NCBI RefSeq assembly: GCF_031624395.1
Contig: NZ_JAMQON010000001.1
Coordinates: 620,001-684,000, forward strand
Direction: 5' to 3'
Origin: Halomicroarcula saliterrae
Lineage (GTDB): Archaea > Halobacteriota > Halobacteria > Halobacteriales > Haloarculaceae
DNA: 64,000 bases
The translations under genes and the position numbers were made by a program. A model generated the notes under the pieces. It saw only the letters and a list, made by a program, of their open reading frames with translations, was not told the origin of the DNA and ran no database searches. Shown here piece after piece: positions 2,707 through 63,998 of the stretch (position 1 is its first letter; every line of letters starts with the position of its first letter).

Positions 2707-3900
2707 ATGACTGTCAACGTCGCTGTCGTAATGACCAGTAGGGGCAACTACGCCAGAATCGGCCCCGTGCTCCACGAGCTGTCAGACGACCCGGAGTTCG
2801 ACCTCGACATCATCAACGCGGGGGCGTCGATGATCCGCAAGTACGGCTCTCTCTCCGCGATTCTCCGCGATGACGGGCTCGAAATCTCGGAGGAGATGTA
2901 CAACGTTCTGGAGGGGGGTAATCCCGTCTCCTCCGCGAAGACGACCGGGCTGAGCATGGTCGAGTTCACGACGGTGCTCGACAATCTGGACCCCGACGTG
3001 GTCATCACCATCGCCGACCGCTACGAGACGATGGCGGTGACGCTCGCGGCCTGCTATCAGAACATCCCGATCGTCCACACGCAGGGCGGGGAGATAACGG
3101 GCTCTATCGACGAGAAGGTCAGACACGCGACGACGAAGCTGGCGGACTATCACATGGTCTCGACCGAGCGGAGCGCCGAGGTGGTCAATCGCTTAGGCGA
3201 GGACGAGGACCGAATCTACGAGGTCGGCTGTCCCTCTATCGACATCGCCGACGACATCGCCGAGAACGCCGACCCCGAGTACGACCCACAGGACGACTAC
3301 GGTGGCGTCGGCGAGGACATCGACGTGAGCGAGGACTACATCGTCATCCAGTACCACCCCGTCCCGACCCAGTACCAGTCCGAGTACGACAAGACATGGG
3401 AGCTCATCGAGGCCGTCGACGAGCTGGACGTCCAGGCGTTCTGGTTCTGGCCCAACATGGACGCCGGGACCGACAAGGTCTCCAAGGCGATTCGCGAGTA
3501 CCGGGACCAGCGCGAGCCGGACGACATCCGCTTTTACATCAACATGCGACCGACCCACTACCTCACCGTGGTCAACAACTCCGCCTGTCTGCTCGGCAAC
3601 TCCAGTGTCGGTATCCGGGAGTGTTCCCGGCTCGGTCAGCCGTCGGTCAACATCGGCGACCGACAGACCGGCCGCGAGCGGGGGCCGAACGTCATCGACG
3701 TGCCCTGTGAGACCGACGCCATCGTCGAGGCCGTCGAGACGCAACTCGACGCCGGGAGCTACGAGACCTCCTCGCTGTACGGCGACGGCGACGCGGCGAC
3801 GAAGATGGTCGACGCGATGCGTGAGATAGAGTACGAACTGAAGGGGTCGATGGACCCGACGCGGCTCGGCCTCTCGGAAATCGCCCCGCCGATGGACTGA
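2707..3900 (+). CDS. neuC: Hydrolysing UDP-sugar 2-epimerase, NeuC/LegG type
   Basis: First step of a nonulosonate pathway: it hydrolyses and epimerises UDP-GlcNAc (NeuC) or UDP-diNAc-bacillosamine (LegG) to a free ManNAc-type sugar. Visible blocks are TSRGNYARIGPVLHEL at the N-terminus, IADRYETMAVTLAACYQNIPIVHTQGGE (about residues 101-128), and GNSSVGIRECSRLGQPSVNIGDRQ followed by RERGPNVIDV in the C-terminal half. These are family-specific for NeuC/LegG rather than the non-hydrolysing WecB. Length (397 residues) is normal. It is followed one base later by neuA. Whether the substrate is GlcNAc or a bacillosamine derivative is not decidable here, since no LegB/C/H set is adjacent. Confidence 0.88.
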   Translation: MTVNVAVVMTSRGNYARIGPVLHELSDDPEFDLDIINAGASMIRKYGSLSAILRDDGLEISEEMYNVLEGGNPVSSAKTTGLSMVEFTTVLDNLDPDVVITIADRYETMAVTLAACYQNIPIVHTQGGEITGSIDEKVRHATTKLADYHMVSTERSAEVVNRLGEDEDRIYEVGCPSIDIADDIAENADPEYDPQDDYGGVGEDIDVSEDYIVIQYHPVPTQYQSEYDKTWELIEAVDELDVQAFWFWPNMDAGTDKVSKAIREYRDQREPDDIRFYINMRPTHYLTVVNNSACLLGNSSVGIRECSRLGQPSVNIGDRQTGRERGPNVIDVPCETDAIVEAVETQLDAGSYETSSLYGDGDAATKMVDAMREIEYELKGSMDPTRLGLSEIAPPMD

Positions 3901-3901
3901 T

Positions 3902-4579
3902 ATGGGTGACGTGCTCGGCCTGATACCCTGTCGCGGCGGCTCGAAGGGCATCAGGCGAAAGAACGTCCAGCCGGTCGCCGGCGAGCCGCTGCTTGCCCAC
4001 ACAGTCGAGGCCAGCCTCGCGGCCGACGCGATAGACCGCACCGTCGTCTCGACCGACGACGCCGAGATAGCCGCCGCCGCCCGCGAGGCCGGCGCGGACG
4101 TGCCCTTCGACCGTCCCGACGAGCTGGCGACCGACGAGGCGGCCATCGAGCCGGTCATCGAGCACGCTATCGAGCAGGTCCGCGAGGCCGACCGGGCGTA
4201 CGACACGCTCGTCTTGCTCCAGGCGACTTCGCCGCTCCGGACCGCAGACGACATCGACGCCGCGATGGAGCGCTACCGCGAGGCGGACGCCGACTCCCTC
4301 GTCGCCGTCTCGGAAGACCACAGCTACCGCTGGGGGGAGACCCCGGACGGCGCGGAGCGACTGAACTACGACAGCCGGAAGCGCCGCCAGGACAAGGCGC
4401 CCGAGTACGTCGAAAGCGGCGCGCTGTACGCCGTGGATATCCCGCAGTTCCTCGCCACCGGCGACCTCCAGACCGGCCGGACCGCGCTGTACGTGCTCGA
4501 CGAGATTTCGGCGCTGGATATCGACAGACCGTACGAGTTATGGCTGGCCGACAAGATACTCCGGGAGTGGAGACAATGA
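3902..4579 (+). CDS. neuA: CMP-nonulosonate synthetase, NeuA/LegF type
   Basis: Cytidylyltransferase that activates the nonulosonate with CTP to give CMP-sialic or CMP-legionaminic acid. It has the CTP-binding signature IPCRGGSKGIRRKN at residues 8-21 and the LLQATSPLRTADDID block around residue 105. At 225 residues it is the short, single-domain form. It starts one base after neuC stops and its TGA overlaps the ATG of neuB (ATGA), so the three genes form a translationally coupled operon. Confidence 0.9.
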   Translation: MGDVLGLIPCRGGSKGIRRKNVQPVAGEPLLAHTVEASLAADAIDRTVVSTDDAEIAAAAREAGADVPFDRPDELATDEAAIEPVIEHAIEQVREADRAYDTLVLLQATSPLRTADDIDAAMERYREADADSLVAVSEDHSYRWGETPDGAERLNYDSRKRRQDKAPEYVESGALYAVDIPQFLATGDLQTGRTALYVLDEISALDIDRPYELWLADKILREWRQ

Positions 4580-5592
4580 TTTCGTTCGACGGCGTCGACG
4601 TCGGTCCCGAGGCCAGACCCGTCGTCGTCGCCGAGGCCGGCGTGAACTTCCGAGACGACATCGACCTCGCGAAGGCGTTCATCGAAGAGGCCGCCGCGGC
4701 CGGCGCCGACGCGGTGAAGTTCCAGACCCACGTGCAAAGCGAGGAGATGGTCGAAAGCGAGATGCGCGAGCTCGACCTGGGCGGGCTCTACGACCGGATG
4801 GGCGTCTACGAGCTCTCGATGGCCGAACACCGCGAGCTCAAGGCCCACTGCGAGGACCACGGCGTGACCTTCCTCTCGACGCCGTTCTCTATCGCCGGCG
4901 TCGAGCGCCTGGAGGAGCTGGGCGTGGACGCCTACAAGGTCGGCTCGGGCGAGCTGACGAACCACAAGCTGTTGCGGACCATCGCCGAGACGGGCAAGCC
5001 GATGATCGTCTCGACGGGGATGCACAGCATGGACACCGTCCGCGAGACCGTCGCCCTGCTGGACGAGCACGCCGACTCGTTCGCGCTGCTGTACTGCGTT
5101 TCGGAGTACCCGACCGAGCCCGAGGACTTCAACCTCGGCGTCATCGACCGGATGGCCGAGGAGTTCGGCGTCCCCGTCGGCTTCTCGGACCACTCGACGG
5201 GCGTCGAGGCCGCCGCCGTCGCGATGGCCCGCGGCGCCGCGCTGGTCGAGAAACACTTCACCATCGACCGGCGCCTCCCCGGCGGCGACCAGGAGGTCTC
5301 CGTCGAGCCCGAGGAGCTGGCGAAGCTGGCCGAGTACGCGACGCTCTGTCACGTCACGAGAGACCGCGAGAAACAGCTCCGCGAGGACGAGGCCGCCATC
5401 GCCGACTGGGCCAGACACAGCGTCGTCACCGCCGCCGATATCGAGGCCGGCGAGACGTTCACCGACGAGACCCTCACGGCCAAACGGCCCGGGACCGGGA
5501 TTCCAGCCGACGAGTTCTACGACGTGGTCGGGAAGACCGCCGCCCGCGACCTCGACGCGAACACGGTCGTGCAGGCCGACGACGTGAACTGA
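4576..5592 (+). CDS. neuB: Nonulosonate synthase, NeuB/LegI type
   Basis: Condenses a ManNAc-type sugar with phosphoenolpyruvate to form the nine-carbon acid. The 338-residue protein has a TIM barrel (VVVAEAGVNFRDD, DAVKFQTHV, TPFSIAGV, YKVGSGE, STGMHS, PVGFSDHSTG, EKHFTIDRRLPGGDQ) and a C-terminal SAF/antifreeze-like domain (from about residue 282, RHSVVTAADIEAGE). ATG 4576 overlaps the neuA stop by four bases; starting at 4540 would run inside neuA. Operon position and order C-A-B make the pathway assignment strong; the exact sugar (Neu5Ac versus legionaminate) is open. Confidence 0.92.
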   Translation: MISFDGVDVGPEARPVVVAEAGVNFRDDIDLAKAFIEEAAAAGADAVKFQTHVQSEEMVESEMRELDLGGLYDRMGVYELSMAEHRELKAHCEDHGVTFLSTPFSIAGVERLEELGVDAYKVGSGELTNHKLLRTIAETGKPMIVSTGMHSMDTVRETVALLDEHADSFALLYCVSEYPTEPEDFNLGVIDRMAEEFGVPVGFSDHSTGVEAAAVAMARGAALVEKHFTIDRRLPGGDQEVSVEPEELAKLAEYATLCHVTRDREKQLREDEAAIADWARHSVVTAADIEAGETFTDETLTAKRPGTGIPADEFYDVVGKTAARDLDANTVVQADDVN

Positions 5593-5695
5593 GTCTCTCG
5601 GGCGGACACCACCGAGGCCAGGCCACCGGCCGCTCGGGTACGGTAATTCGGACATAACAGCTACATTTTTGTGCGTAAGCAGCGTCTATCAACCA

Positions 5696-7579
5696 ATGAC
5701 CGTCCGGGTTGGCGACGCCGAACTGGTCGAAGAGCTCCCCCGATCAGTGACGATTCGCGGTGAACCCTACATCCTCTCGTCGAGCGACGACGGCACGCCT
5801 GTCCTCCACGACGCCATCTGCCCCCATCAGGGCGGTACGGTGACCGTCGAATCGGAGAGCTGCCTCCGCTGTCCCCAGCACAACTGGGACTTCGACCCCG
5901 AGACCGGTGACAGCACCAACATCCCGGGCGAGGAGCTACGCACCTACGAGGTGACAGTTCGGGAGGACGGCCTCTACGCGGAGCTCCCGACATCGGCGGG
6001 GGGGACCCTCGAGTTCGCCACGGAGTCGACCGACGAGCGGCCGTCGGTCACGCTGGTCTCTCACGCCGCACTGCTCATCGAGTACGACGGGTTCACGCTG
6101 CTGACCGACCCGTGGATAGACGGCCCCGCGTTTCTCGGGGCGTGGACGCAGTATCCGCCCGCCCCGCACGACGTGTCGGACCTCGCCGACGAGGTCGACG
6201 CCATCTGGATCACCCACGAGCACTCCGACCACCTCCACCCGCCGACGCTCTCCCAGTTCGACCCCGAGACCCCCGTCTACGTCCCCGAGCTGAACTACCA
6301 GCGCCTGTCCGACAGGCTCGCCGATATCGGGCTGGAGAACGTCCACCGGCTCCCGACGGAGACGCCGTACCGGCTCGCCGACAACGTCGAGGCGGTCTGT
6401 TTCGAGTCGGGCAGTACCTGGAACGACAGCATCCTGCTGGTCGACTGTGGCGGCTTCCGGATACTCAACGTCAACGACGTCGGCGTCAACTGGGACGTTC
6501 AGGAGCACGTCGAGTCGGTCGACATGGTCGCGAGCGGGTTCGCCTTCGGTGCCTCGGGCTATCCGCTCACGTGGACCCACCTGAGCGACGACGAGAAGCG
6601 CTCGCTCGTCGACGACCGCAACCGGGGCCAGCTCGCCAAGTGCGAGCAGCTCGTCGACCTGTTCGACCCGTCTTACTTTCTCCCCTTCGCGAAGTTCTTC
6701 ACGCTTGCCCAGCCCGACCACGGGCGCTACCGCGAGCAGATGGAGAAGAACACGCCGGGCGACGTGGCCGACTACCTCGACGACGAGCCGGTGCGCGTGC
6801 TCGACCTCGTCCCCGGCGAGCGCTGGGCGGGGGCGGACGACAGCATCGACCGCGTCCCCGACCGCGAGCGGTTCTTCCGCGACGACGTCGAGGAGCGTCT
6901 CGGCCGGGAGGCCTACGAGGCGTTCACCCCGTTCGTCGACGAGCGCTTCGACCTGACCCACGGGGAGCTCCAGCGGTACTTCACCGAACTCGCCGGCTCC
7001 CGGCTCGCCGAGGAGATAGAGAGCCACGCGCTGACGCTGGAACTCGAGGGTGACGAGCGGACGCTGACCGGCTACGTCGAGTTCGACCGCGGCGACATCA
7101 CCTACACCGCGACCGAGACGCCGGTCGACCACGGCGACTCGGACGCGGCGACACACGTGATGATGCGAGTGCCCGGCCATCTCGTCCAGCACGTCGTCCG
7201 GGCCGACCTGTCGTGGGACGAGATACGCATCGGCTACTGGTCGGAGTCGAGCCGGGACCCGGACGAGTACAACCTCGCGTTCTGGCGGCTGCTACACGCC
7301 CCCTGGGAGGCCCGGACTGACACGTACCGCATCGCCGAGAGCTACGACATCTCGACCGAGCTGTCGGGCCGGACGATGGCCGACCTCGTCGAACAGGAAC
7401 AGGTCCAGGAGATACTGGAGCGGTACGGGCTCTTCTGTGCCGGCTGTCCGGCCGGGCTGGGCGAGGACATCCTCGAAGCCGCCAGAATCCACGGCCTCGA
7501 CAGGGAACAGGCCCGGACGCTGGTCACGGACATCGAGGCTGCCGTCGACGAGGCGCCCGGAGCCGCGGCCTCGGACTGA
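5696..7579 (+). CDS. CMAH-like CMP-nonulosonate hydroxylase: Rieske + MBL fold + DUF1858-like tail
   Basis: In animals CMAH hydroxylates the N-acetyl group of CMP-Neu5Ac to N-glycolyl. This 627-residue protein has a Rieske domain at about 1-100 (Cys42, His44, Cys59, His62; ICPHQGG and CPQHNWDFD). A metallo-beta-lactamase-like region follows with THEHSDHLHPPTL (His174, His176, Asp178, His179). CMAH-specific blocks recalled from the mammalian enzyme are matched: LLTDPWIDGPAF, GASGYPLTW and LSWDEIRIGYW followed by RDPDEY. Residues 561-620 form an extra domain with CAGCPAG (Cys581, Cys584), like DUF1858, which animal CMAH lacks. ATG 5696 was chosen because the Rieske strand begins there. It lies 103 bp after neuB on the same strand. 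The hydroxylase activity is inferred from homology and context, not shown. Confidence 0.8.
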   Translation: MTVRVGDAELVEELPRSVTIRGEPYILSSSDDGTPVLHDAICPHQGGTVTVESESCLRCPQHNWDFDPETGDSTNIPGEELRTYEVTVREDGLYAELPTSAGGTLEFATESTDERPSVTLVSHAALLIEYDGFTLLTDPWIDGPAFLGAWTQYPPAPHDVSDLADEVDAIWITHEHSDHLHPPTLSQFDPETPVYVPELNYQRLSDRLADIGLENVHRLPTETPYRLADNVEAVCFESGSTWNDSILLVDCGGFRILNVNDVGVNWDVQEHVESVDMVASGFAFGASGYPLTWTHLSDDEKRSLVDDRNRGQLAKCEQLVDLFDPSYFLPFAKFFTLAQPDHGRYREQMEKNTPGDVADYLDDEPVRVLDLVPGERWAGADDSIDRVPDRERFFRDDVEERLGREAYEAFTPFVDERFDLTHGELQRYFTELAGSRLAEEIESHALTLELEGDERTLTGYVEFDRGDITYTATETPVDHGDSDAATHVMMRVPGHLVQHVVRADLSWDEIRIGYWSESSRDPDEYNLAFWRLLHAPWEARTDTYRIAESYDISTELSGRTMADLVEQEQVQEILERYGLFCAGCPAGLGEDILEAARIHGLDREQARTLVTDIEAAVDEAPGAAASD

Positions 7580-8947: not shown

Positions 8948-9883
8948 CTACTCGACGTAGCCGAGGTTGTGGAGGCGTTCTCTGACGACGTCTTCCCCCA
9001 TCGTCGTGCTCGAACGGGCGCCCTCGTCGGTGAACTCCCGCTCGGTCCCGTCGTCGATGACCGCCCAGGGGACCTCGACGAGCTCGGGACAGCGCAGCCC
9101 CGGCGGGTGGCCGTAGACGCGCACCGGCGGGAACGTGCGTTCGCCGAGCATGTTGCCGTGGTCGGACATGATGACGCTGCGACCGGGCAAGTGCTCGGCC
9201 AGTTCGACCGCGTGGTCGATGACGAAATCCAGCGTGTCGCCGTAGGCGTCCCAGGTCTCTTCTCTGGTCACCTCGCCGAGTTCGAGGGCGTGCCAGATGT
9301 TCCGCGGGTCCTCGCCCGCCGGCCCGGTGGTTTCGCCCGGGCGCCAGTGGGTCCGGAAGATGAGTTCGGGTCGGGGGACAAAGGGCATGTGGGGCTGGAC
9401 GAAGTGAGCGACGAGACGCTTGTCCGGGTGGTCCGCGTGGGCGTCTTTGGCCTCCTCGACGACCGGTTCGGGGAGAATCGAGACGCTATCCGGGTCGAAG
9501 TGGTCGGCCCACACCTCGCGCAGTTCGTGGAACGACTCCGGGGCCTCCTTCGAGGTGACCGGGTTCGCTGTCACGTACACCAGGTCGCCGAACTCCTCGC
9601 CGGCGAAGTTCTTCTGTGTCCACGGCGTCGTGTTGCTGGCGTTCGACGTCACGCGCTTGTACTCGTCGAAGCGGTCGAGGTCGACCCGCTCCTCGAAGAG
9701 GTCGGCCCGGCAGGCGTCGAGGACGAGCAGATTGTCCCACTCGTGGTCGAAGACGGACGTCCCCGCGTCGCCGTAGCCAAGCGAGTGGAGCGGACTCACG
9801 ACCTCCGCGAGAAAGTTGTGCCGAACCCAGTGGGGGTCGTTCCATTTCTCCGCGATTCGACGGAGGACGTATCCTGCGTTCAT
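8948..9883 (-). CDS. Sulfatase-like / alkaline phosphatase superfamily protein
   Basis: A 311-residue protein of the alkaline phosphatase superfamily. It has WDNLLVLDACRADLFEE (first metal-binding Asp), SNASNTTPWTQKNF where a Thr sits at the nucleophile position, HFVQPHMPFV and SDHGNMLGE for the second metal site. There is no CxPxR formylglycine motif, so a true sulfatase is unlikely; Thr nucleophiles occur in phosphoglycerol and phosphoethanolamine transferases. It ends in LHNLGYVE, the tail shared by its five relatives in the window, and is closest to the protein at 11638. No signal peptide is visible. Substrate unknown. Confidence 0.75.
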   Translation of the reverse strand: MNAGYVLRRIAEKWNDPHWVRHNFLAEVVSPLHSLGYGDAGTSVFDHEWDNLLVLDACRADLFEERVDLDRFDEYKRVTSNASNTTPWTQKNFAGEEFGDLVYVTANPVTSKEAPESFHELREVWADHFDPDSVSILPEPVVEEAKDAHADHPDKRLVAHFVQPHMPFVPRPELIFRTHWRPGETTGPAGEDPRNIWHALELGEVTREETWDAYGDTLDFVIDHAVELAEHLPGRSVIMSDHGNMLGERTFPPVRVYGHPPGLRCPELVEVPWAVIDDGTEREFTDEGARSSTTMGEDVVRERLHNLGYVE

Positions 9884-10032: not shown

Positions 10033-11469
10033 TCACCGAATGCGGGCATATCGGAGCAGGGTTGGCGGCGCCAACGCCACCGCTTTCTGCCGGATTCGCG
10101 GCGAGATACTCAGCAGGGCGACCGTGTACACCGCGGCCCCGGCGCCCACGAGCGAGATGGTCCCGACGAACCCGCCGGGCGCGAGGGGCTCTAGAGCGAC
10201 GACGCCGGCGAACATCAGGACGCTCGCGACCAGCTCCTCGCCGATTTCCCTGACCGGGACGCTCGGCCGCCCGACGAGTCGGCTGATGGCGACGTAGCTC
10301 AGGCCGAGGGTGACGCCCCCGGAGACGAGCGTCGCCGCGGCGGCCCCGTACCAGCCGAACTGCGAGACCAGAACGACGTTCAACACGACGTTCATGCTGA
10401 CGAGCAACAGGTCGATGCGGAGGACGATGTCGGGTCTGTCCAGCGCCTTGATGACCGAGACGATCTGTGAGGCGTAGGCGTCGAGTATGAGGGCGCCGAC
10501 CAGTATCACGAGGACCGTCGCGCCGCGGGAGAACTCGGTGTTGTAGATGCGCAACAGCTCGCTGCCCAGCGCCGCCGCACCGAACAGCCCGGGGATGAGA
10601 AAGAGGCCGGTGAACACGAGCCCCTCGTCGAGGTAGTGTTTGACCTGCTCGGTCTGTCCGGCGGTGCTGATGTCGCTGATCTCGGGGAACAGCGTCGAGC
10701 TGACGGAGTTCGAGAGGACGACCAGGAACGAGCCGAGCGTCCAGGCGACCTTGTAGATGCCGACCAGCGTCGGCGAGACGAAAAAGCCCAGCACGATGAT
10801 GTCCATGTAGTTGAACGCGTTGCCCTTCAGGCCGCCCGACCAGCCGCTCTTTGCGTACTCGACGAGCCGCTCGAAGTGGACCCGCTTCGGCCGGGTCGGC
10901 CCCAGACCGACGAAGTACAGGCCGACGAGCGAACTCACGACGAGGGCGACGGCGTGGCCCACGAAGAGGCCGGCAATCGTGTAGCCCACCAGCAGTAGCG
11001 CCACCTGAAACGCGGTTCGGAGAGTCCGCTCGACGAAACGCACCCAGCCGGCCTGGGCGACCTTCTTCTCCCCGTGGAGCGCCTCCCGGAGCGTGTTGAA
11101 CACGCCGTTGGTGACCAGGACCAGCGCGATGAACACCGCGATGGTGTCGCCGACGTATCGGTTGACCTGTCCCCGGAAGAGGACGACGAGCACGGCCGGC
11201 ACGGCGACCGACGTAAAATTCAACAGGACGCCGGCGGTGAAGTAGGCGTTCTCGTCTATCCCTTCGCTGACCCGCTTCTTGAGCGCCTCCTGAAAGCCCG
11301 ACAGCGGGACGTTGAGCCAGACGACGATAGACATCCCCAGCGCGTACACGCCGACGCCGTCGGCGCCGAGGATACGCGCGATTGCGAACGTCGCGACGAA
11401 GCCCGACACGGAGACGGCGACCTGCGAGACGAAGTGGATTGCCGCCGTGCGACCGAGTTTGAGAGCCAT
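10033..11469 (-). CDS. Polysaccharide/lipid-linked glycan flippase (MATE/Wzx, AglR-like)
   Basis: A 478-residue integral membrane protein with about 14 hydrophobic segments and the Wzx-type N-terminus GRTAAIHFVSQVAVSVSGFVATFAIARILGADG. It would move a lipid-linked glycan across the membrane, like haloarchaeal AglR. The order on the minus strand (flippase, sulfatase-like, GT-B) suggests an export and modification unit. A 149-bp gap separates it from the sulfatase-like gene. The second flippase in the window (54375) is only distantly similar, which fits two separate glycans. Confidence 0.85.
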   Translation of the reverse strand: MALKLGRTAAIHFVSQVAVSVSGFVATFAIARILGADGVGVYALGMSIVVWLNVPLSGFQEALKKRVSEGIDENAYFTAGVLLNFTSVAVPAVLVVLFRGQVNRYVGDTIAVFIALVLVTNGVFNTLREALHGEKKVAQAGWVRFVERTLRTAFQVALLLVGYTIAGLFVGHAVALVVSSLVGLYFVGLGPTRPKRVHFERLVEYAKSGWSGGLKGNAFNYMDIIVLGFFVSPTLVGIYKVAWTLGSFLVVLSNSVSSTLFPEISDISTAGQTEQVKHYLDEGLVFTGLFLIPGLFGAAALGSELLRIYNTEFSRGATVLVILVGALILDAYASQIVSVIKALDRPDIVLRIDLLLVSMNVVLNVVLVSQFGWYGAAAATLVSGGVTLGLSYVAISRLVGRPSVPVREIGEELVASVLMFAGVVALEPLAPGGFVGTISLVGAGAAVYTVALLSISPRIRQKAVALAPPTLLRYARIR

Positions 11470-11637
11470 AACCTACTCAGTGGAACTGCCCGTCGCCGCG
11501 GATACTGCCTTGGTTTGCCCTTTCGGTGTATAAGTCTCGTGGGATAGAACAGACACCGCCTTCGGGCGGCGACGGCGCTGCCAGCCGGTGCTGAGTAGAA
11601 GGGCTTATGCGACCCCTGGTCGTCGTTACGATGATTG

Positions 11638-12618
11638 ATGATTCCGGACCGGTACACGTTCAGTAACTTCAAACGGGCGGTGAAACAGCCCGGACTGCTC
11701 GTCGAGGAACTCGGGCGGCTCCCGTTTACGTTCCACGCGGTCGCCCAGAGCATCTACGCGGAGCGACACGGCTACGGCGAGGGCGACGCCGTGATACTGC
11801 CCGACGAGGACTGGGACAACCTCATCCTCATCGACGCCTGCCGGGCCGACCTCTTCGAGGAGACCATGGACACGTCCCGATACGACAGCTACTCGCGGGT
11901 CGTCTCCGTCGACAGCAACACGACGCCCTGGAGTATCAAGAACTTCAAGGACAGACAGCTCGGCGACACCGTCTTCGTCACCGGGAACCCCGCGCCGTCG
12001 AAGACCGTCCCCAACGACTTCCACGAGTTCATCGAGGTGTGGACGGACAAGGACGCCCACGACACGACTACCTACACCGTGCCGGCCGAATCGGTCTGTG
12101 AGTACACCCGCGACGCCGTCGAGCAGTACCCGGACAAGCGCGTTCTCGCACACTTCGTCCAGCCCCACTGCCCGTTCGTCCCCCGCGAGGACCTCGTCTT
12201 CCGGAACACCTGGGGCGACGCCGAGCGCATCGGCATCGAGGGCGGCGAGCCCGAACGGCCGTACAACGTCTGGGACGCGCTGGAGATGGGCGAGGTCGAC
12301 GCCGACACCGTGTGGGAGGGGTACAGAGAGAACCTGGAGTACGTCATGGAGCACGTCCACGACCTCGTCGAAGACCTGCCGGGCAAGACCGTCATCACGT
12401 CCGACCACGGCAACATGCTCGGCGAGCGGACTATCACCGGCCGGAAGGTGTACGGCCATCCCGGCGGGATGCGGATGAAAGACCTCGTCGAGGTCCCCTG
12501 GGCCGTCGTCGAGAACGGGCCCCGAAAGGAGATACGCGACGACGGCGTCCACTCCGAGGGGTCCGTCGAGTCCGACCTCATCGAGTCCCGGCTGGCCGCG
12601 CTCGGCTACGTCGAGTGA
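11638..12618 (+). CDS. Sulfatase-like / alkaline phosphatase superfamily protein
   Basis: A 326-residue paralogue of the protein at 8948, sharing WDNLILIDACRADLFEE, SNTTPWSIKNF, HFVQPHCPFVP, SDHGNMLGER, VPWAV and the tail LAALGYVE. The nucleophile position is Thr, not Cys or Ser in a CxPxR context. ATG 11638 is used; an in-frame TTG lies just before it. It is divergent from the flippase, with a shared 168-bp promoter region. Likely a phosphodiesterase or phosphotransferase acting on glycans; no export signal was seen, so action on the cytosolic side is the simplest reading. Confidence 0.75.
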   Translation: MIPDRYTFSNFKRAVKQPGLLVEELGRLPFTFHAVAQSIYAERHGYGEGDAVILPDEDWDNLILIDACRADLFEETMDTSRYDSYSRVVSVDSNTTPWSIKNFKDRQLGDTVFVTGNPAPSKTVPNDFHEFIEVWTDKDAHDTTTYTVPAESVCEYTRDAVEQYPDKRVLAHFVQPHCPFVPREDLVFRNTWGDAERIGIEGGEPERPYNVWDALEMGEVDADTVWEGYRENLEYVMEHVHDLVEDLPGKTVITSDHGNMLGERTITGRKVYGHPGGMRMKDLVEVPWAVVENGPRKEIRDDGVHSEGSVESDLIESRLAALGYVE

Positions 12619-12752
12619 CCGGCCCGGCGCCGGTTCCCGTCCCTCTCTCAGCTATCGGGCACCGCGTCCGGCGGTCCGAAAGCGCTTGACCGGGCACCGC
12701 GTCCAGCAGTCCGAAAGAGCTTACTTCGGCCCGATTGCTATATCTCCCTAAC

Positions 12753-13730
12753 ATGGTTCTCGTCGTTCTGGGTATCGACGCCCTCGACCCCGACCTCGTC
12801 GCGCAAGGGGAGTACCCGAATCTCACGCTCTCCGACCATCGGGCCATCGAGACGATAGACAGCATCGAGGGCGAACCGAGCACCCACGAGCTCTGGCCGA
12901 CGATTATCACCGGCCTCACGCCGGAGGAACACGGGCTCGTCCTCTCCGACGACGGCGTGGCGTGGGGGAACCCCGTGCTCGAATTCGGCAGCCGCGTCGC
13001 CGACGTCGTGCTCCCGGACGGGCTCCAGACCCGCATCGGCGCGTGGCTGCTGACGAACACGACCGCCGACGCCTTTCGCACGCCCAAGCGCTACTACGCC
13101 GAGAACGGTATCACGACCGTCTTCGACGACTGCGCGGCGACGCCGATCGGGATTCCGAACTACGTCGTCGACCCGGACGAGACGGACCGCGAACACCAGT
13201 TGCGCCAGAACATGGGCGAGCTGTTCCAGCGCGACCCCGACGCCCGCGGCGGCCACACCTCCGCGGACCCGATTTCCTTCTACGAGCAGTGTCTGGAGAT
13301 GGCGATGATTCGGTTGGCACGGGCCCGGCGCGCGCTGCGGGGCCACGAGTCCGAGCTCGTCTTCGCCTACACGAGCGGGCTGGACCTCGTCGGCCACGTC
13401 GCCTACGACCAGCCCGGCCTCCAGCGGTCGGCCTACGAGGAGCTCGACGACTTCGTCGGCGACGTTCGGGACGACCTCGGCGACGGCGACGAACTACTGC
13501 TGGTCAGCGACCACGGGCTACAGGAGGGCGTCCACACCCACGAGGCGATGGTGGCCGCGACCGACGGCGACCTCGTCGCCGACATCGAGAGCGTCACCGA
13601 CGTTCGCCGAGCCATCGAGGCGGAACTGGACCGCACCGACCACGTGCCCGAACGCCGCGTGCTGGACGAGACGGACGGCGCCGGCGGCGAGGCCGTCAGA
13701 GAGCAGCTGGAAAATCTGGGGTACATGTGA
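12753..13730 (+). CDS. Type I phosphodiesterase/alkaline phosphatase-like protein
   Basis: A 325-residue protein beginning VLVVLGIDALDPDLV (first metal Asp) with HELWPTIITGLTPEEHG, where the Thr of WPT would be the nucleophile, as in nucleotide pyrophosphatase/phosphodiesterases. Further metal ligands are in LDLVGHVAYD and LLVSDHGLQEGVHTHE. It ends LENLGYM, the shared family tail. ATG 12753 was chosen over the longer reading from 12735. Two bases after its stop the next member starts, so the three plus-strand members (11638, 12753, 13733) look like one transcription unit. Substrate unknown. Confidence 0.75.
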   Translation: MVLVVLGIDALDPDLVAQGEYPNLTLSDHRAIETIDSIEGEPSTHELWPTIITGLTPEEHGLVLSDDGVAWGNPVLEFGSRVADVVLPDGLQTRIGAWLLTNTTADAFRTPKRYYAENGITTVFDDCAATPIGIPNYVVDPDETDREHQLRQNMGELFQRDPDARGGHTSADPISFYEQCLEMAMIRLARARRALRGHESELVFAYTSGLDLVGHVAYDQPGLQRSAYEELDDFVGDVRDDLGDGDELLLVSDHGLQEGVHTHEAMVAATDGDLVADIESVTDVRRAIEAELDRTDHVPERRVLDETDGAGGEAVREQLENLGYM

Positions 13731-55927: not shown

Positions 55928-56779
55928 ATGCCTTCGGTCGCATTCATGGGGAGTCACCCCCTCGGCGAACGCTGTCTCGAAGAACTCACCAGCCGGGACG
56001 CCTTCGACGTCGAACTGGTCGTCACCTACGGCCCCAACGAGGACACCTGGTGGGACGGCTGTCTGTACGACCGCGCCAAGCAACTGGGCCACCGCGTCGT
56101 CACGCGCTCGTCGGAGCGCGTCGTGCTCAAACACGACATCGACTACCTGGTCAGCGTCTACTATCCCGACATCCTCGGCGAGGAGCTGCTCGACCACCCC
56201 AACGTCGCCCCTCTGAACCTCCACCAGGCCGAACTCCCCCGGTATCGCGGGAGCAACGTCTTCTCCCACGCCATCATGAACGCCCGCGACGACGACCACT
56301 GGCGCTACGGCACCACGCTGCACGTGATGGCACCGGAGGTCGACGCCGGTGACATCGTCGCCCGTCGGTTCGTCCCGATAGAGGAGACCGACACGGCGCG
56401 GATGCTGTACGACCGCGTCACCGACGCTTCCGCCGAGCTGTTCCGCGAACAGCTCACGACGCTCCGGGACGGTGACGTCCACCGGGTGGCGACGCCCCAG
56501 TCGGCCTACAACGGGGAGCGGTACTTCTACACGAAAGAGAGTCTGGACGGCGAGAAAGCGATTCCGGCCGAGCGGCTGGCCGACGACGACGAGTCGACCC
56601 AGCTCGCGGTGTACGACAAGATTCGCGCGCTGGACTTCCCGCCGTTCCAGCCCGCCTACACGGAGCTCGCCGGGAACCGCGTCTATCTGACGGCGACCGA
56701 CTACAGCGACCTCTTCGAGGGGGCGTCGGTGCCGAGTCTCGGCGTCGAGACCGACGCGGTGCCGGTCTCGGGGAACTAG
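55928..56779 (+). CDS. Sugar N-formyltransferase (Fmt/ArnA-like fold)
   Basis: A 283-residue formyltransferase: VAFMGSHPLGERCLEEL, YYPDILGEELL, then LNLHQAELPRYRGSNVFSHAI with the catalytic Asn and His, and HVMAPEVDAGDIVARR with the catalytic Asp. The NxH...D set is that of N10-formyl-THF-dependent enzymes. With Gfo/Idh and DegT genes converging on it, it most likely formylates an amino sugar made by them; methionyl-tRNA formylation is unlikely in archaea. A TATAACTA element ends 28 nt before ATG 55928. Confidence 0.8.
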   Translation: MPSVAFMGSHPLGERCLEELTSRDAFDVELVVTYGPNEDTWWDGCLYDRAKQLGHRVVTRSSERVVLKHDIDYLVSVYYPDILGEELLDHPNVAPLNLHQAELPRYRGSNVFSHAIMNARDDDHWRYGTTLHVMAPEVDAGDIVARRFVPIEETDTARMLYDRVTDASAELFREQLTTLRDGDVHRVATPQSAYNGERYFYTKESLDGEKAIPAERLADDDESTQLAVYDKIRALDFPPFQPAYTELAGNRVYLTATDYSDLFEGASVPSLGVETDAVPVSGN

Positions 56780-57780
56780 AACTGCTCGACGGCGTTCGTC
56801 CGGTCGACGGGGACGACGCTCTTCTTGCGGGCCGACTCCTCGGCGTATTCGAGCGTCTCGACCGCGCGGGCACCGACGGCCCCGTCGGCGGGTGGCTGCT
56901 CCCCCTTTTTGCTGGCCTCGATGAACGCCGAGACCTCCATCTTCAGCGGCTCGCGCTTGTCCGTGTTGTGGGAAATCGCGCCGTCGTTGCGCGATTTGAG
57001 CCCGTCGTCGGGGTCCGAGAACACTTCGGCGTCGAACAGTTCGAGCTTGGTGTTTTGCAGATAGTCGACGTAGGCCGAGCGGTTCGACCCCACGACCACG
57101 AGGTCGCGCTTCTTGTCGAAGACCGGCACCTGCCACGAGGAGTTGATGACGCCGCTGGTGTTGCCGTATTCCAGCGTGATGGTGGCCGTCTCGACGATGT
57201 TCTCACGGACGAACGAGTCGAGCTGGCCGTGGACGGTGTCGGGACGGCGACCCAGCAGGTAGTCGTAGATGTCCACGTCGTGGACCGCGAGCGAGTACAG
57301 CACGCCCGTGGTGGTCCGGGGGACCCGGAACGAAAAGCGCCGGGTCTGGAGATACTTGATGCGGCCCAGCTCCCCCCGGTCGATGCGTCGCTTCAGCGCG
57401 ACGAGCGCGGGGTGATACCGGAAGATGTGGCCCACGCCGAGCGTACAGTCGTTGTCCTCGGCGGCCTCCACGATGTCCCAGGCGTCCCGGGAGGTGAGTG
57501 CGAGCGGTTTCTCGACGAGGAGGTCGATACCCCGCTCCAGCATCGACAACCCGACCGTCCGGTGTGTCGTCGAGGGCGTCGCGACCGTCGCCGCGTCCAC
57601 GTCGAGGTTCCCGATGTCGGTCACGTAGGGGAGGTCGTAGGTCTCGGCCAGCGAGGAGGCCCGCCCCTCGTCGGTGTCACAGAGCACGACCTCGTCGAGC
57701 TCGCCATCGTCCATCAGTTCCTTCGCGACGCGGACGTGGTTTTTCCCCCAGTAACCGGTGCCGACGACGCCGTATCTCAT
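56776..57780 (-). CDS. Gfo/Idh/MocA-family UDP-sugar dehydrogenase (WlbA-like)
   Basis: A 334-residue oxidoreductase: YGVVGTGYWGKNHVRVAKEL, TVATPSTTHRTVGLSMLERGIDLLVEKPL with catalytic Lys, GHIFRYHPALVALK, and LAVHDVDIYDYLLG with the active-site His. The style resembles WlbA/WbpB, which oxidises UDP-GlcNAcA C3 for the partner aminotransferase. Its ATG overlaps the end of the DegT gene (57777) and its stop overlaps the convergent formyltransferase gene, both by four bases. Confidence 0.85.
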   Translation of the reverse strand: MRYGVVGTGYWGKNHVRVAKELMDDGELDEVVLCDTDEGRASSLAETYDLPYVTDIGNLDVDAATVATPSTTHRTVGLSMLERGIDLLVEKPLALTSRDAWDIVEAAEDNDCTLGVGHIFRYHPALVALKRRIDRGELGRIKYLQTRRFSFRVPRTTTGVLYSLAVHDVDIYDYLLGRRPDTVHGQLDSFVRENIVETATITLEYGNTSGVINSSWQVPVFDKKRDLVVVGSNRSAYVDYLQNTKLELFDAEVFSDPDDGLKSRNDGAISHNTDKREPLKMEVSAFIEASKKGEQPPADGAVGARAVETLEYAEESARKKSVVPVDRTNAVEQF

Positions 57781-58877
57781 TCGTAGAACCCCCTGATGGC
57801 CGCACAGACGCGGTCGATCTCTTCGTCGGTGATGCGGGGGTGCATCGGGAGCGAGAGGATGCGGTCACAGAGCCGCTCGGTCTCCGGCAAGTCGGGCACC
57901 CCGTCGAGATAGGACCGCATCGCCGGTGTCTGGTGGACCGGCGGGTCGTAGTGAACGCCGGTCCCGATACCCTGCTCTTCCAGCGCGGCTCGTAGTTCGT
58001 CCCGGTCGGGCACCTGGACGACGAAGAGGTGGTACACGTGCGAGGCGTCCTCGCGCTCGGTCGGGAGTTCGACCGCGTCCACGTCGGCCAGCCGGTCGCG
58101 ATACCGCCGGGCCGCCGCCGCCCGGTCGGCGTTCCAGTCCGCCAGATGCGAGAGCTGTTCGATGCCGACGGCCGCACTGACCTCGTCGAGCCGGTGGTTC
58201 AGCCCCAGCCGCACGTGGTTCCCGTCGGCGTCGCGCCCGTGGTTGCGGAGCTCTCTGGCCGCCCGAGCGAGGTCGGCGTCGTCCGTGACGAGCATGCCGC
58301 CGTCGCCGGCGACGGTCATGTTCTTCGAGGGGTAGAAGCTGAAACAGCCGGCGTCCCCGAAGCTGCCCACCGGGTCGCCCCGGTAGGTCGCGCCGTGGGC
58401 CTGACAGCTGTCCTCGAACACCCGCAGGTCGTACCGCTCGGCGATGGTCGTAATCGGGCCCATCGCCGCCGGCTGACCGTAGAGATGGACCGGGGCCACC
58501 GCGGCCGCGTCCTCGTGGGCCGCGGCCTTCCGGGCGAGGTCCGTCTCGTCGATGGTGTAGGTCTCCGGGTCCACGTCGACGAACACCGGTTCGGCACCGA
58601 GCTCGACGACGGGGCTGACCGTCGCGAAGAAGGTGTGTGACGGGACCAGTACAGTGTCCCCGTCACCGATGCCGGCGGCCTTCATGGCGAGGTACAGCGC
58701 CGCTGTCCCGCTGCTGACACCGACGGCGTGACCGACGTCACAGGTGTCGGCGAACTGTTCTTCGAGCGCTTCGACGCGCGGACCTTTGACGTACCGACGC
58801 GAGTCGAGCACCTCGGTCGCACTGTCGACGATATCGTCGTCGACGTATACATCTGTAAACGGGACCTGTTCCGTCAT
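57777..58877 (-). CDS. DegT/DnrJ/EryC1 sugar aminotransferase
   Basis: A 366-residue PLP enzyme: VPFTDVYVDDDIVDSATEVLDSRRYVKG, VSSGTAALYLAMKAAGIGDGDTV, FEDSCQAHGATYRGDPVGSFGDAGCFSFYPSKNM with the PLP Lys in the SKN motif, and LRNHGRD. It would aminate the 3-keto sugar made by the Gfo/Idh partner. Close to the enzyme at 61900, with which it shares the long block around the PLP Lys. An ATAACAA site lies 28 nt before ATG 58877. Confidence 0.9.
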   Translation of the reverse strand: MTEQVPFTDVYVDDDIVDSATEVLDSRRYVKGPRVEALEEQFADTCDVGHAVGVSSGTAALYLAMKAAGIGDGDTVLVPSHTFFATVSPVVELGAEPVFVDVDPETYTIDETDLARKAAAHEDAAAVAPVHLYGQPAAMGPITTIAERYDLRVFEDSCQAHGATYRGDPVGSFGDAGCFSFYPSKNMTVAGDGGMLVTDDADLARAARELRNHGRDADGNHVRLGLNHRLDEVSAAVGIEQLSHLADWNADRAAAARRYRDRLADVDAVELPTEREDASHVYHLFVVQVPDRDELRAALEEQGIGTGVHYDPPVHQTPAMRSYLDGVPDLPETERLCDRILSLPMHPRITDEEIDRVCAAIRGFYE

Positions 58878-61832: not shown

Positions 61833-61907
61833 GTGATAGCAGTCCAATCGAAGCCGACTGGACGAGTCGGTATATTCCCTGATATGGCGGTGAAGCGGCA
61901 TGACTGA
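61833..61907 (+). CDS. Putative 24-residue leader peptide
   Basis: A GTG-started ORF whose end ...CAT GAC TGA overlaps the DegT start (ATG 61900) by eight bases, exactly as at 47817. The GTG is 27 nt after the ATAACAA site. The frame is also open upstream to an ATG inside the motif (61805). Confidence 0.4.
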   Translation: MIAVQSKPTGRVGIFPDMAVKRHD

Positions 61908-63006
61908 CACACAGGTGGACGGGCCAACCATGTCGATCGCGTCGCCGGACGTAGGCCGGGAGGAACTCCACCGCATCCACGACGTTCTCCGCTCCGGTCA
62001 ACTCAGCGGTGGCGACGAGGTCGACACCTTCGGCGCCGAGTTCGCGGAGTACTGTGGCGTCGACTACGGTGTTCCGACCACGAACGGGACGACGGCCCTC
62101 CACGCGGCGCTGGCCGCGCTGGACGTCGGTAGCGGGGACACGGTTCTGACGACGCCGTTCTCGTTTATCGCGACGGCCAACGCTATCAGACACGTCGGTG
62201 CGCGGCCGCTGTTTGCGGACATCGACCCGGAGACGTACAACCTGGACCCCGACAGTGTGGCTGGGGCTATCGACGACGCCGACGGCGGTATCGACGCCGT
62301 ACTCGCCGTCCACCTCTATGGCTGTCCCGCCCCGCTGGCCGAGCTACGGGACATCGCGGACCGTCACGACGCGGCCCTCGTCGAGGACTGCGCGCAGGCC
62401 CACGGCGCGACCTACCGGGGCGACCCGGTGGGCAGCTTCGGGGACGCCGGCTGTTTCAGCTTCTACCCCACGAAGAACATGACCACGGGCGAAGGCGGCA
62501 TGGTCGTCACGGACGACGAAGCCGTCGCGGACCGGCTCGGGAGCTTCATCGACCACGGGCGGAGCCCCGACGGCGGGTACGACCGCGTCGGCCACAACTT
62601 CCGCATGACCGATATCTGTGCGGCCATCGGTCGCGTCCAGCTCTCGAAACTCGACGACTACGTCGCCGCCAGGCGCGAGCACGCGAGACAGTTCGACAGC
62701 GCGGTCACCGGGACCGCCATCGACACGCCGGTCGAGCCCGACCACTGTGAGCACGCCTACCACCAGTACACGGTCCGGTGTGACGACCGCGCAGCGCTGC
62801 AGTCCCATCTGGAGAGCTACGGCGTCGATTCTGCGGTGTACTACCCGACGCCGATACACCGACAGCCGGCCTACGACGACGTGGACGCCGCGCTTCCGGT
62901 CGCCGAACGCGCCGCGTCAGAGGTCCTCTCTATACCGGTCCATCCCGACCTCTCGCCGCGGGACGTCCGGGCAATCTCGCTCGCACTCACGGAGTATCCA
63001 GCATGA
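61900..63006 (+). CDS. DegT/DnrJ/EryC1 sugar aminotransferase (second copy)
   Basis: A 368-residue PLP enzyme: VPTTNGTTALHAALAALDVGSGDTVLTTPFSFIATANAIRHVGARPLFADIDPETYNLD, VEDCAQAHGATYRGDPVGSFGDAGCFSFYPTKNM with the PLP Lys, and DHGRSPDGGYDRVGHNFRMTD. It is the partner of the Gfo/Idh gene that follows (4-bp overlap). ATG 61900 is favoured by the overlap with the leader ORF; an internal ATG at 61930 (SIASPDVGREEL) is possible. Confidence 0.88.
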   Translation: MTDTQVDGPTMSIASPDVGREELHRIHDVLRSGQLSGGDEVDTFGAEFAEYCGVDYGVPTTNGTTALHAALAALDVGSGDTVLTTPFSFIATANAIRHVGARPLFADIDPETYNLDPDSVAGAIDDADGGIDAVLAVHLYGCPAPLAELRDIADRHDAALVEDCAQAHGATYRGDPVGSFGDAGCFSFYPTKNMTTGEGGMVVTDDEAVADRLGSFIDHGRSPDGGYDRVGHNFRMTDICAAIGRVQLSKLDDYVAARREHARQFDSAVTGTAIDTPVEPDHCEHAYHQYTVRCDDRAALQSHLESYGVDSAVYYPTPIHRQPAYDDVDAALPVAERAASEVLSIPVHPDLSPRDVRAISLALTEYPA

Positions 63007-63998
63007 CCGAGCCGCTGTCTGCCGGCGTCGTCGGGGTGGGGAGTATGGGAACACACCACGCGCGGGTGTACAACGAGCTCCAGGGCGTGGAACTGGCGGG
63101 CATCGCCGACGCCGACCAGGAGGCGGCGAGGCAGGTCGCGGCGGAGTACGGGACCGCGGTGTACGAGCTCGAAACGCTGCTCGACCGCGTCGACATGGTC
63201 TCTATCGCCGTCCCGACGCGCTTTCACTACGACGTGGCGTCCCGCGCCATCGACGCCGGCGTCTCCCTCCTCGTCGAGAAGCCCTTCGTCGACGACCCGG
63301 AGAAGGGCCACGAACTCATCGACCGGGCCCGGTCGGCCGGCGTGACTCTCCAGGTGGGTCACATCGAGCGGTTCAACCCCGTCGTCGACGTGCTCAAAGA
63401 CGTGCTCGCCGGCGTCGAGCCGATCGCGGCCTCGGCCCGTCGGCTGGGGCCGCCGGTCTCCCGGGACGTGAACGACGACGTGGTGATGGACCTGATGATT
63501 CACGACATCGACATCGCCTGTGCGCTCTTCGGCGGGGAGGTGGCCGGCGTCACCGCCATCGGCGCCTGCGAGGGCGACTACACGGACGCACAGATAGCGT
63601 TCGACGGCGGGACGCTCTGCTCGCTGACGGCGAGTCGGGTGACACAGGAGCGCATCCGGGACCTCTCGGTCACGGCGAGAGAGTGTCACGTCAACGTCGA
63701 CTTCATGGACCAGTCCGTCCGCATCTACCGGCATTCGGACCCCTCGTATCACACCGAGGACGGCGACGTACGCTACAGTCAGGAGAGCATCATCGAGCGC
63801 CCCGCCGTCGAGAGCGACGAGCCGCTCAAACGCGAGCTGCGTTCGTTCGTCGACTGCGTACGCGACGGGACGACCCCGCGGACCACCGGAGCCGACGGGC
63901 TCCACGCGATGTTGCTCGCCGACGAGATAAGCGAGATAGCCGACTCGCGGACCCTCGCACAGGAGGAGGTGAGCGTCAGTGACCGCAGCACGATCTGA
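63003..63998 (+). CDS. Gfo/Idh/MocA-family sugar dehydrogenase (third copy)
   Basis: A 331-residue oxidoreductase: SAGVVGVGSMGTHHARVYNEL, SIAVPTRFHYDVASRAIDAGVSLLVEKPF with catalytic Lys, GHIERFNPVVDVLKDVL and LMIHDIDIACALFGGE. It resembles UDP-GlcNAc 3-dehydrogenases used in making 3-amino sugars. It starts with an ATGA overlap on the DegT gene. The pair duplicates the function of 56776-58877 but in reversed gene order. Confidence 0.86.
   Translation: MTEPLSAGVVGVGSMGTHHARVYNELQGVELAGIADADQEAARQVAAEYGTAVYELETLLDRVDMVSIAVPTRFHYDVASRAIDAGVSLLVEKPFVDDPEKGHELIDRARSAGVTLQVGHIERFNPVVDVLKDVLAGVEPIAASARRLGPPVSRDVNDDVVMDLMIHDIDIACALFGGEVAGVTAIGACEGDYTDAQIAFDGGTLCSLTASRVTQERIRDLSVTARECHVNVDFMDQSVRIYRHSDPSYHTEDGDVRYSQESIIERPAVESDEPLKRELRSFVDCVRDGTTPRTTGADGLHAMLLADEISEIADSRTLAQEEVSVSDRSTI

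Follow-up and report, generated by a model that had tools for sequence, protein, structure and literature searches.

The window analysed here, a 64,000-nucleotide stretch of the Halomicroarcula saliterrae genome, carries a gene at positions 5696–7579 of the + strand that encodes an acidic, ATG-initiated protein of 627 residues. We favoured the ATG at 5696 over an upstream TTG at 5669 because both full-length relatives begin there too. The open reading frame, the start of the relatives, an alignment with mouse CMAH and a tree identify the gene as that of a CMAH-type Rieske–MBL hydroxylase; CMAH is the animal enzyme that converts Neu5Ac to Neu5Gc. Upstream, all on the + strand, lie neuC, for a hydrolysing UDP-GlcNAc 2-epimerase (2707–3900; TIGR03568, 341.9 bits versus a cut-off of 235.9), a neuA-like gene for a CMP-nonulosonate cytidylyltransferase (3902–4579; TIGR03584, 130 bits, below cut-off), and neuB, for a nonulosonate synthase (4540–5592; TIGR03569, 323.8 bits, below the cut-off of 399.65). 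The coordinates of neuC, neuA and neuB confirm the initial annotation, which had placed the gene 103 bp behind a nonulosonate operon on the same strand: the gap from the end of neuB is 103 bp. Scanning the coding strand for promoters of the bacterial type yielded no useful result.

The neuCAB genes are surrounded by an aglG-type glucuronosyltransferase gene of haloarchaeal N-glycosylation (550–1503, + strand; NF041394, 471.5 bits, cut-off 440), a polysaccharide flippase gene (10033–11469, − strand; PF01943, E 6.6e-14) and further glycan genes, and the locus is therefore a glycosylation island. Sulfatase/phosphodiesterase-like genes repeat within the island (8951–9883, − strand; 11635–12618 and 12735–13730, + strand); the first two of these have homologues in the corresponding island of Halorubrum salsamenti and no Pfam match.

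The protein begins with a Rieske [2Fe-2S] domain (5717–5947, + strand, residues 8–84; PF00355, E 5e-10), in which the motif CPHQGG...CPQH supplies the ligands C42, H44, C59 and H62. These ligands are invariant across the three full-length haloarchaeal proteins and the provisional mouse CMAH sequence that served as a reference. An MBL-fold dimetal domain with the HxHxDH motif follows directly C-terminal of it (6047–6835, + strand, residues ~118–380; PF12706 (Lactamase_B_2), E 2.4e-10; HEHSDH at 174–179 and D261), and is also seen in an AlphaFold2 model and its Foldseek matches; DPWIDGPAF (138–146) and GASGYPLTW (285–293) are found here. An SCP2-like C-terminal domain (6950–7315, + strand, residues ~419–540), delineated by a domain model and its SCP2 matches, contains WDEIRIG, as part of LSWDEIRIG (505–513), and RDPDEY (520–525). 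Every motif listed in the initial annotation, from the Rieske ligands to RDPDEY, was thus located in the reading frame. That annotation had overlooked a further domain at the C-terminus, a DUF1858/TIGR03980-like redox-disulfide domain (7385–7510, + strand, residues 564–605; C581-A-G-C584; TIGR03980, E 8.4e-9, below its cut-off). Its CxGC is kept in all four haloarchaeal members, and no counterpart was found in the aligned part of the provisional mouse CMAH. Fused to the hydroxylase, this tail (7385–7510) may be an electron entry point.

The mouse CMAH reference was a provisional sequence, verified in part with published data on the cat and dog enzymes. With the offset held constant, it agreed with 11 of the 17 wild-type cat CMAH residues given in the literature, compared with at most three at every other offset tried; all four dog CMAH primers translated to stretches of it, and the published 342-bp amplicon size was predicted exactly from two dog primer sites (PMC6147723, PMC6842231). 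The final portion of the tail in this sequence was unreliable and was left out of the main alignment and the trees. The initial annotation had claimed a whole-length alignment with mammalian CMAH, and this was borne out: identity to the provisional mouse sequence was 24% over 551 residues, and the local alignment covered the full length and scored 56 SD above shuffles. Taken part by part, the scores were 11 SD for the Rieske domain, 37 SD for the MBL domain and 13 SD (13.2) for the C-terminal domain. By the same measure the provisional mouse C-terminus scored 4.1 SD with an MBL-only protein, and in NamH the shuffle test detected nothing that matches the C-terminal region of CMAH. In a set that also held 22 haloarchaeal MBL-only proteins and 12 NamH-like proteins from actinobacteria, provisional mouse CMAH matched the haloarchaeal trio best, over the entire protein and in every one of the shared three domains. 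Membership in the CMAH-type family is well supported. CMAH was absent among the PDB matches in a sequence search.

The AlphaFold2 model, built with 26 related sequences, had a mean pLDDT of 81 and a pTM of 0.71. The top Foldseek match was the diiron monooxygenase FrsH, followed closely by NAPE-PLD and CmlA. VIA-align 2 placed several MBL hydrolases (Z ~21–22, one 22.3) above CmlA (19.6; rmsd 4.2 over 235 residues) and FrsH (19.1); these alignments all fall within residues ~100–411. The presence of two diiron monooxygenases, FrsH and CmlA, among the solved structures closest to the MBL fold counts in favour of an oxygenase. Because hydrolases outscore both in VIA-align 2, the MBL fold alone cannot tell oxygenase from hydrolase, and the Rieske domain is the better discriminator. 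A reading of the protein as a hydrolase or esterase-like enzyme of the MBL fold, with the Rieske domain as an accessory and glycans or their intermediates as substrates, could account for the many hydrolases among the top structural neighbours and for the existence of haloarchaeal MBL-only relatives devoid of Rieske; we nevertheless consider it very unlikely, since the Rieske centre is intact, with four ligands, in three of three full-length members and would serve no obvious function in a hydrolase, every domain is closest to CMAH in sequence, and the top Foldseek match is a monooxygenase. The generic stand-alone MBL hydrolase class (UlaG/YhfI-like) was also set aside, as a Rieske domain with all its ligands is present. 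Modelled alone (pLDDT 75), the C-terminal domain resembled sterol carrier protein 2 (best VIA Z 8.5, rmsd 3.2, 110 residues).

Trees were built from the MBL and C-terminal parts, with animal CMAH represented by the one provisional, partly verified mouse sequence. Mouse and haloarchaeal CMAH grouped together, with support of 92/97 when distant outgroups were included and 99/92 when they were omitted, and rival groupings were just rejected (p-AU 0.047 and 0.048); the support is only moderate because the branches are long. In the phylogeny, which the initial annotation had proposed as a check, the haloarchaeal protein thus joined mouse CMAH, apart from NamH and the MBL-only proteins (99/92). The split between mouse and haloarchaeal CMAH is deep (~4 changes per column) and the GC content of the window copy equals that of its neighbours, so that a recent transfer from animals is unsupported. 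NamH identity was ruled out by a reversed domain order and a separate clade: the 12 actinobacterial NamH-like proteins have the MBL domain first and the Rieske centre at the C-terminal end, in agreement with the published description of NamH (PMC10050696). CMAH has been described as a distant homologue of bacterial N-glycolylmuramic acid genes (PMC6481270). In the haloarchaeal MBL-only family (~450–480 aa) the MBL domain is joined to a C-terminal region like that of CMAH, and there is no Rieske domain; at 1e-15 some two dozen of the 391 Halobacteria have a member (for example G000:C2:490133 (L002, L150), L013, L014, L019 and L142). The family is possibly another sugar-modifying enzyme.

The gene was present in 4 of 391 Halobacteria: the window genome, H. 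salsamenti (G344) and two further genomes, G127 and G180. The H. salsamenti island repeats aglG, neuC (68%), neuA (57%), neuB (52%), the CMAH gene (60%), the flippase (36%) and the sulfatase-like genes. In a tree of the higher-scoring NeuBs, those of the window and H. salsamenti were sisters, apart from the other 31 haloarchaeal NeuBs (SH-aLRT 100). NeuB occurred in all four carriers, compared with 76 of the 391 Halobacteria (P = 0.0013; P = 0.007 with the window genome omitted because it was chosen for this gene). Domain order, per-domain matches, the tree, the repeated island and the co-occurrence with NeuB together uphold the earlier view of a CMAH-type protein linked to nonulosonate synthesis.

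In G127 the gene (8987–10864 of L038) is intact and stands outside any nonulosonate cluster, with a GC content of 52.8% in a neighbourhood of 65.7%, and looks recently acquired; the nonulosonate set of this genome (L152) comprises PseB/LegB-, aminotransferase- and NeuD-type genes, has no plain neuCAB and looks legionaminic-type. The G180 copy (17525–18565 of L039) is an N-truncated remnant that starts from residue ~240 and has no Rieske part; it is flanked by a GNAT acetyltransferase gene and a DUF4910 gene, close to the end of a contig, in a genome with a pseudaminic-type nonulosonate set. This patchy occurrence (4 of 391), together with the remnant in G180 and the isolated low-GC copy in G127, might be taken to mean that a mobile glycan island merely carries the gene along, decaying or unexpressed. 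Such a status is highly improbable, however, for the copies of the window, H. salsamenti and G127, which are intact and keep the catalytic residues invariant at ~60% identity, indicating that selection has acted; the window copy, moreover, shares the GC content of its surroundings.

Further full-length relatives were found neither in IMG/VR, nor on plasmids (with the window protein and the provisional mouse protein as queries), nor in a phylum sample of 393 genomes. The 246 Actinomycetota searched held no full-length relative, and NamH-like, other MBL and Rieske-only proteins instead. Among 146 genomes of the window organism's family only the G180 remnant was found besides the window gene, and neither the 26 genomes of the G127 family nor the 52 of the H. 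salsamenti genus added a full-length copy. A scan of all genomes returned H. salsamenti as the only full-length relative, with patterns that would miss distant bacterial CMAHs because they derive from one sequence.

Among solved structures, neuC comes closest to a bifunctional UDP-GlcNAc 2-epimerase/ManNAc kinase, in its epimerase half, and neuB to a SiaC N-acetylneuraminate synthase. Of LegB, LegC and LegH, which the legionaminic pathway has in addition to LegG, LegI and LegF, LegC was searched for genome-wide; in the four carriers it gave no match over the cut-off, which is strict for haloarchaea because the LegC-like genes of the Leg-type set in G127 also fall below it. At 1e-20 no LegC-type aminotransferase turned up anywhere in the H. 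salsamenti genome, a result that speaks for Neu5Ac over legionaminic acid. The window genome had only two LegC-type (DegT) hits at 1e-20 (57.8–58.9 and 61.9–63.0 kb of the window), each beside a UDP-GlcNAc 3-dehydrogenase-like gene. On this pairing and on the lack of a LegC match over that strict cut-off, a legionaminic pathway in the window was considered unlikely; the pairs probably belong to a 3-amino sugar pathway. Taken together, the solved relatives of neuC and neuB and the LegC result favour Neu5Ac as the predicted sugar of the linked islands. The regions 55928–58877 and 61900–63995, which hold the two DegT aminotransferase/UDP-GlcNAc 3-dehydrogenase-like pairs, also contain a formyltransferase-like gene, an observation of note since Halorubrum sp. 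PV6 carries an N-formyl nonulosonate.

We propose that the protein is probably an O2-dependent CMP-Neu5Ac N-acetyl hydroxylase that yields CMP-Neu5Gc, a function read from its sequence and gene context. In the MBL-fold domain a dimetal site, probably diiron, would receive electrons from the N-terminal Rieske cluster and activate O2, and the N-acetyl methyl of CMP-activated sialic acid would be hydroxylated, turning CMP-Neu5Ac into CMP-Neu5Gc. The CMP-sialic acid would be supplied by the adjacent neuC, neuA and neuB, and the N-glycolyl sialic acid would then become part of the S-layer or N-linked glycan to which the surrounding island belongs. The probable source of electrons is a host reductase, perhaps via the C-terminal CxxC domain. 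We infer metals, reaction, substrate, product and electron route from the family. Of the initial proposal that archaea have the parts to make an N-glycolyl-type nonulosonate, the family and the neuCAB linkage have held up, and the chemical steps stand as a fair prediction from the family.

Besides the low identity (24%) to a mouse sequence that is itself provisional, and the ambiguity of the MBL fold, two observations count against Neu5Gc formation. G127, one of the three full-length carriers, has the gene away from its nonulosonate genes and a legionaminic-looking set, and the archaeal nonulosonate reported from Halorubrum sp. PV6 is N-formyl-legionaminic acid, not Neu5Gc (PMC6137143). A CMAH-family hydroxylase might instead act on another nucleotide sugar (CMP-legionaminic acid or a UDP-N-acetyl sugar) or at another position of the nonulosonate. 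NamH, likewise a Rieske and MBL enzyme, acts on a muramic acid precursor (PMC10050696); the G127 genome holds the gene and, apart from it, nonulosonate genes of PseB/LegB, aminotransferase and NeuD type, with no plain neuCAB; and the best model for the window neuA is PseF, although below its cut-off. Both linked islands, however, are short neuC–neuA–neuB sets, and one of the two genomes is free of a LegC-type aminotransferase, so that we regard another substrate as unlikely, if a serious contender to the conversion of CMP-Neu5Ac.

More tentatively, and with somewhat less than even confidence, we suggest that some haloarchaea make Neu5Gc through a CMAH with its own redox-disulfide domain, and that CMAH would be an old enzyme which archaea and animals have in common, not one that animals invented. 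A 2018 survey by Peri et al. reportedly traced CMAH homologues to two green algae and to a small number of prokaryotes, and for this reason we do not claim the existence of a prokaryotic CMAH as new. What appears to be new is that the gene is linked to neuCAB in an archaeon, that a second genus repeats this linkage, and that the protein carries an additional CxxC redox domain. If the proposal is true, a complete-looking archaeal route would contradict the statement, in a 2021 paper, that CMAH acts only in deuterostomes and that Neu5Gc is not naturally made by prokaryotes (PMC7845648). It would also offer a salt-tolerant enzyme for a family that lacked a solved structure in the PDB sequence search, add an N-acyl modification to archaeal glycans besides the known N-formyl-legionaminic acid, and bear on the source of animal CMAH.

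Among known systems, the N-acetylmuramic acid hydroxylase NamH of mycobacteria and their relatives is also an MBL-fold and Rieske enzyme that converts an N-acetyl to an N-glycolyl sugar (PMC10050696, PMC6481270). It has an N-terminal MBL domain and a C-terminal Rieske domain and forms a separate clade, whereas the window protein has the opposite order. The haloarchaeal MBL-only proteins share the MBL domain and a C-terminal IGSH..PDxYER that distantly resembles the CMAH tail, but have neither the Rieske domain nor the DUF1858-like tail and form a clade of their own. With the diiron beta-hydroxylases CmlA and FrsH the protein would share an MBL-fold domain that serves as an O2-activating diiron site; these enzymes have no Rieske domain, and their substrates are carrier-bound amino acids of natural product pathways. 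Deuterostome CMAH shares the identical order of Rieske, MBL-fold and C-terminal domains, the ligand motifs together with DPW..GPAF, HxHSDHL, GAS, WD..IG and R-PD-Y, and the pathway place after CMP activation of sialic acid. The mammalian enzyme takes its electrons from cytochrome b5; the haloarchaeal protein, only ~24% identical and acidic, differs from deuterostome CMAH in carrying an extra C-terminal CxxC redox-disulfide domain.
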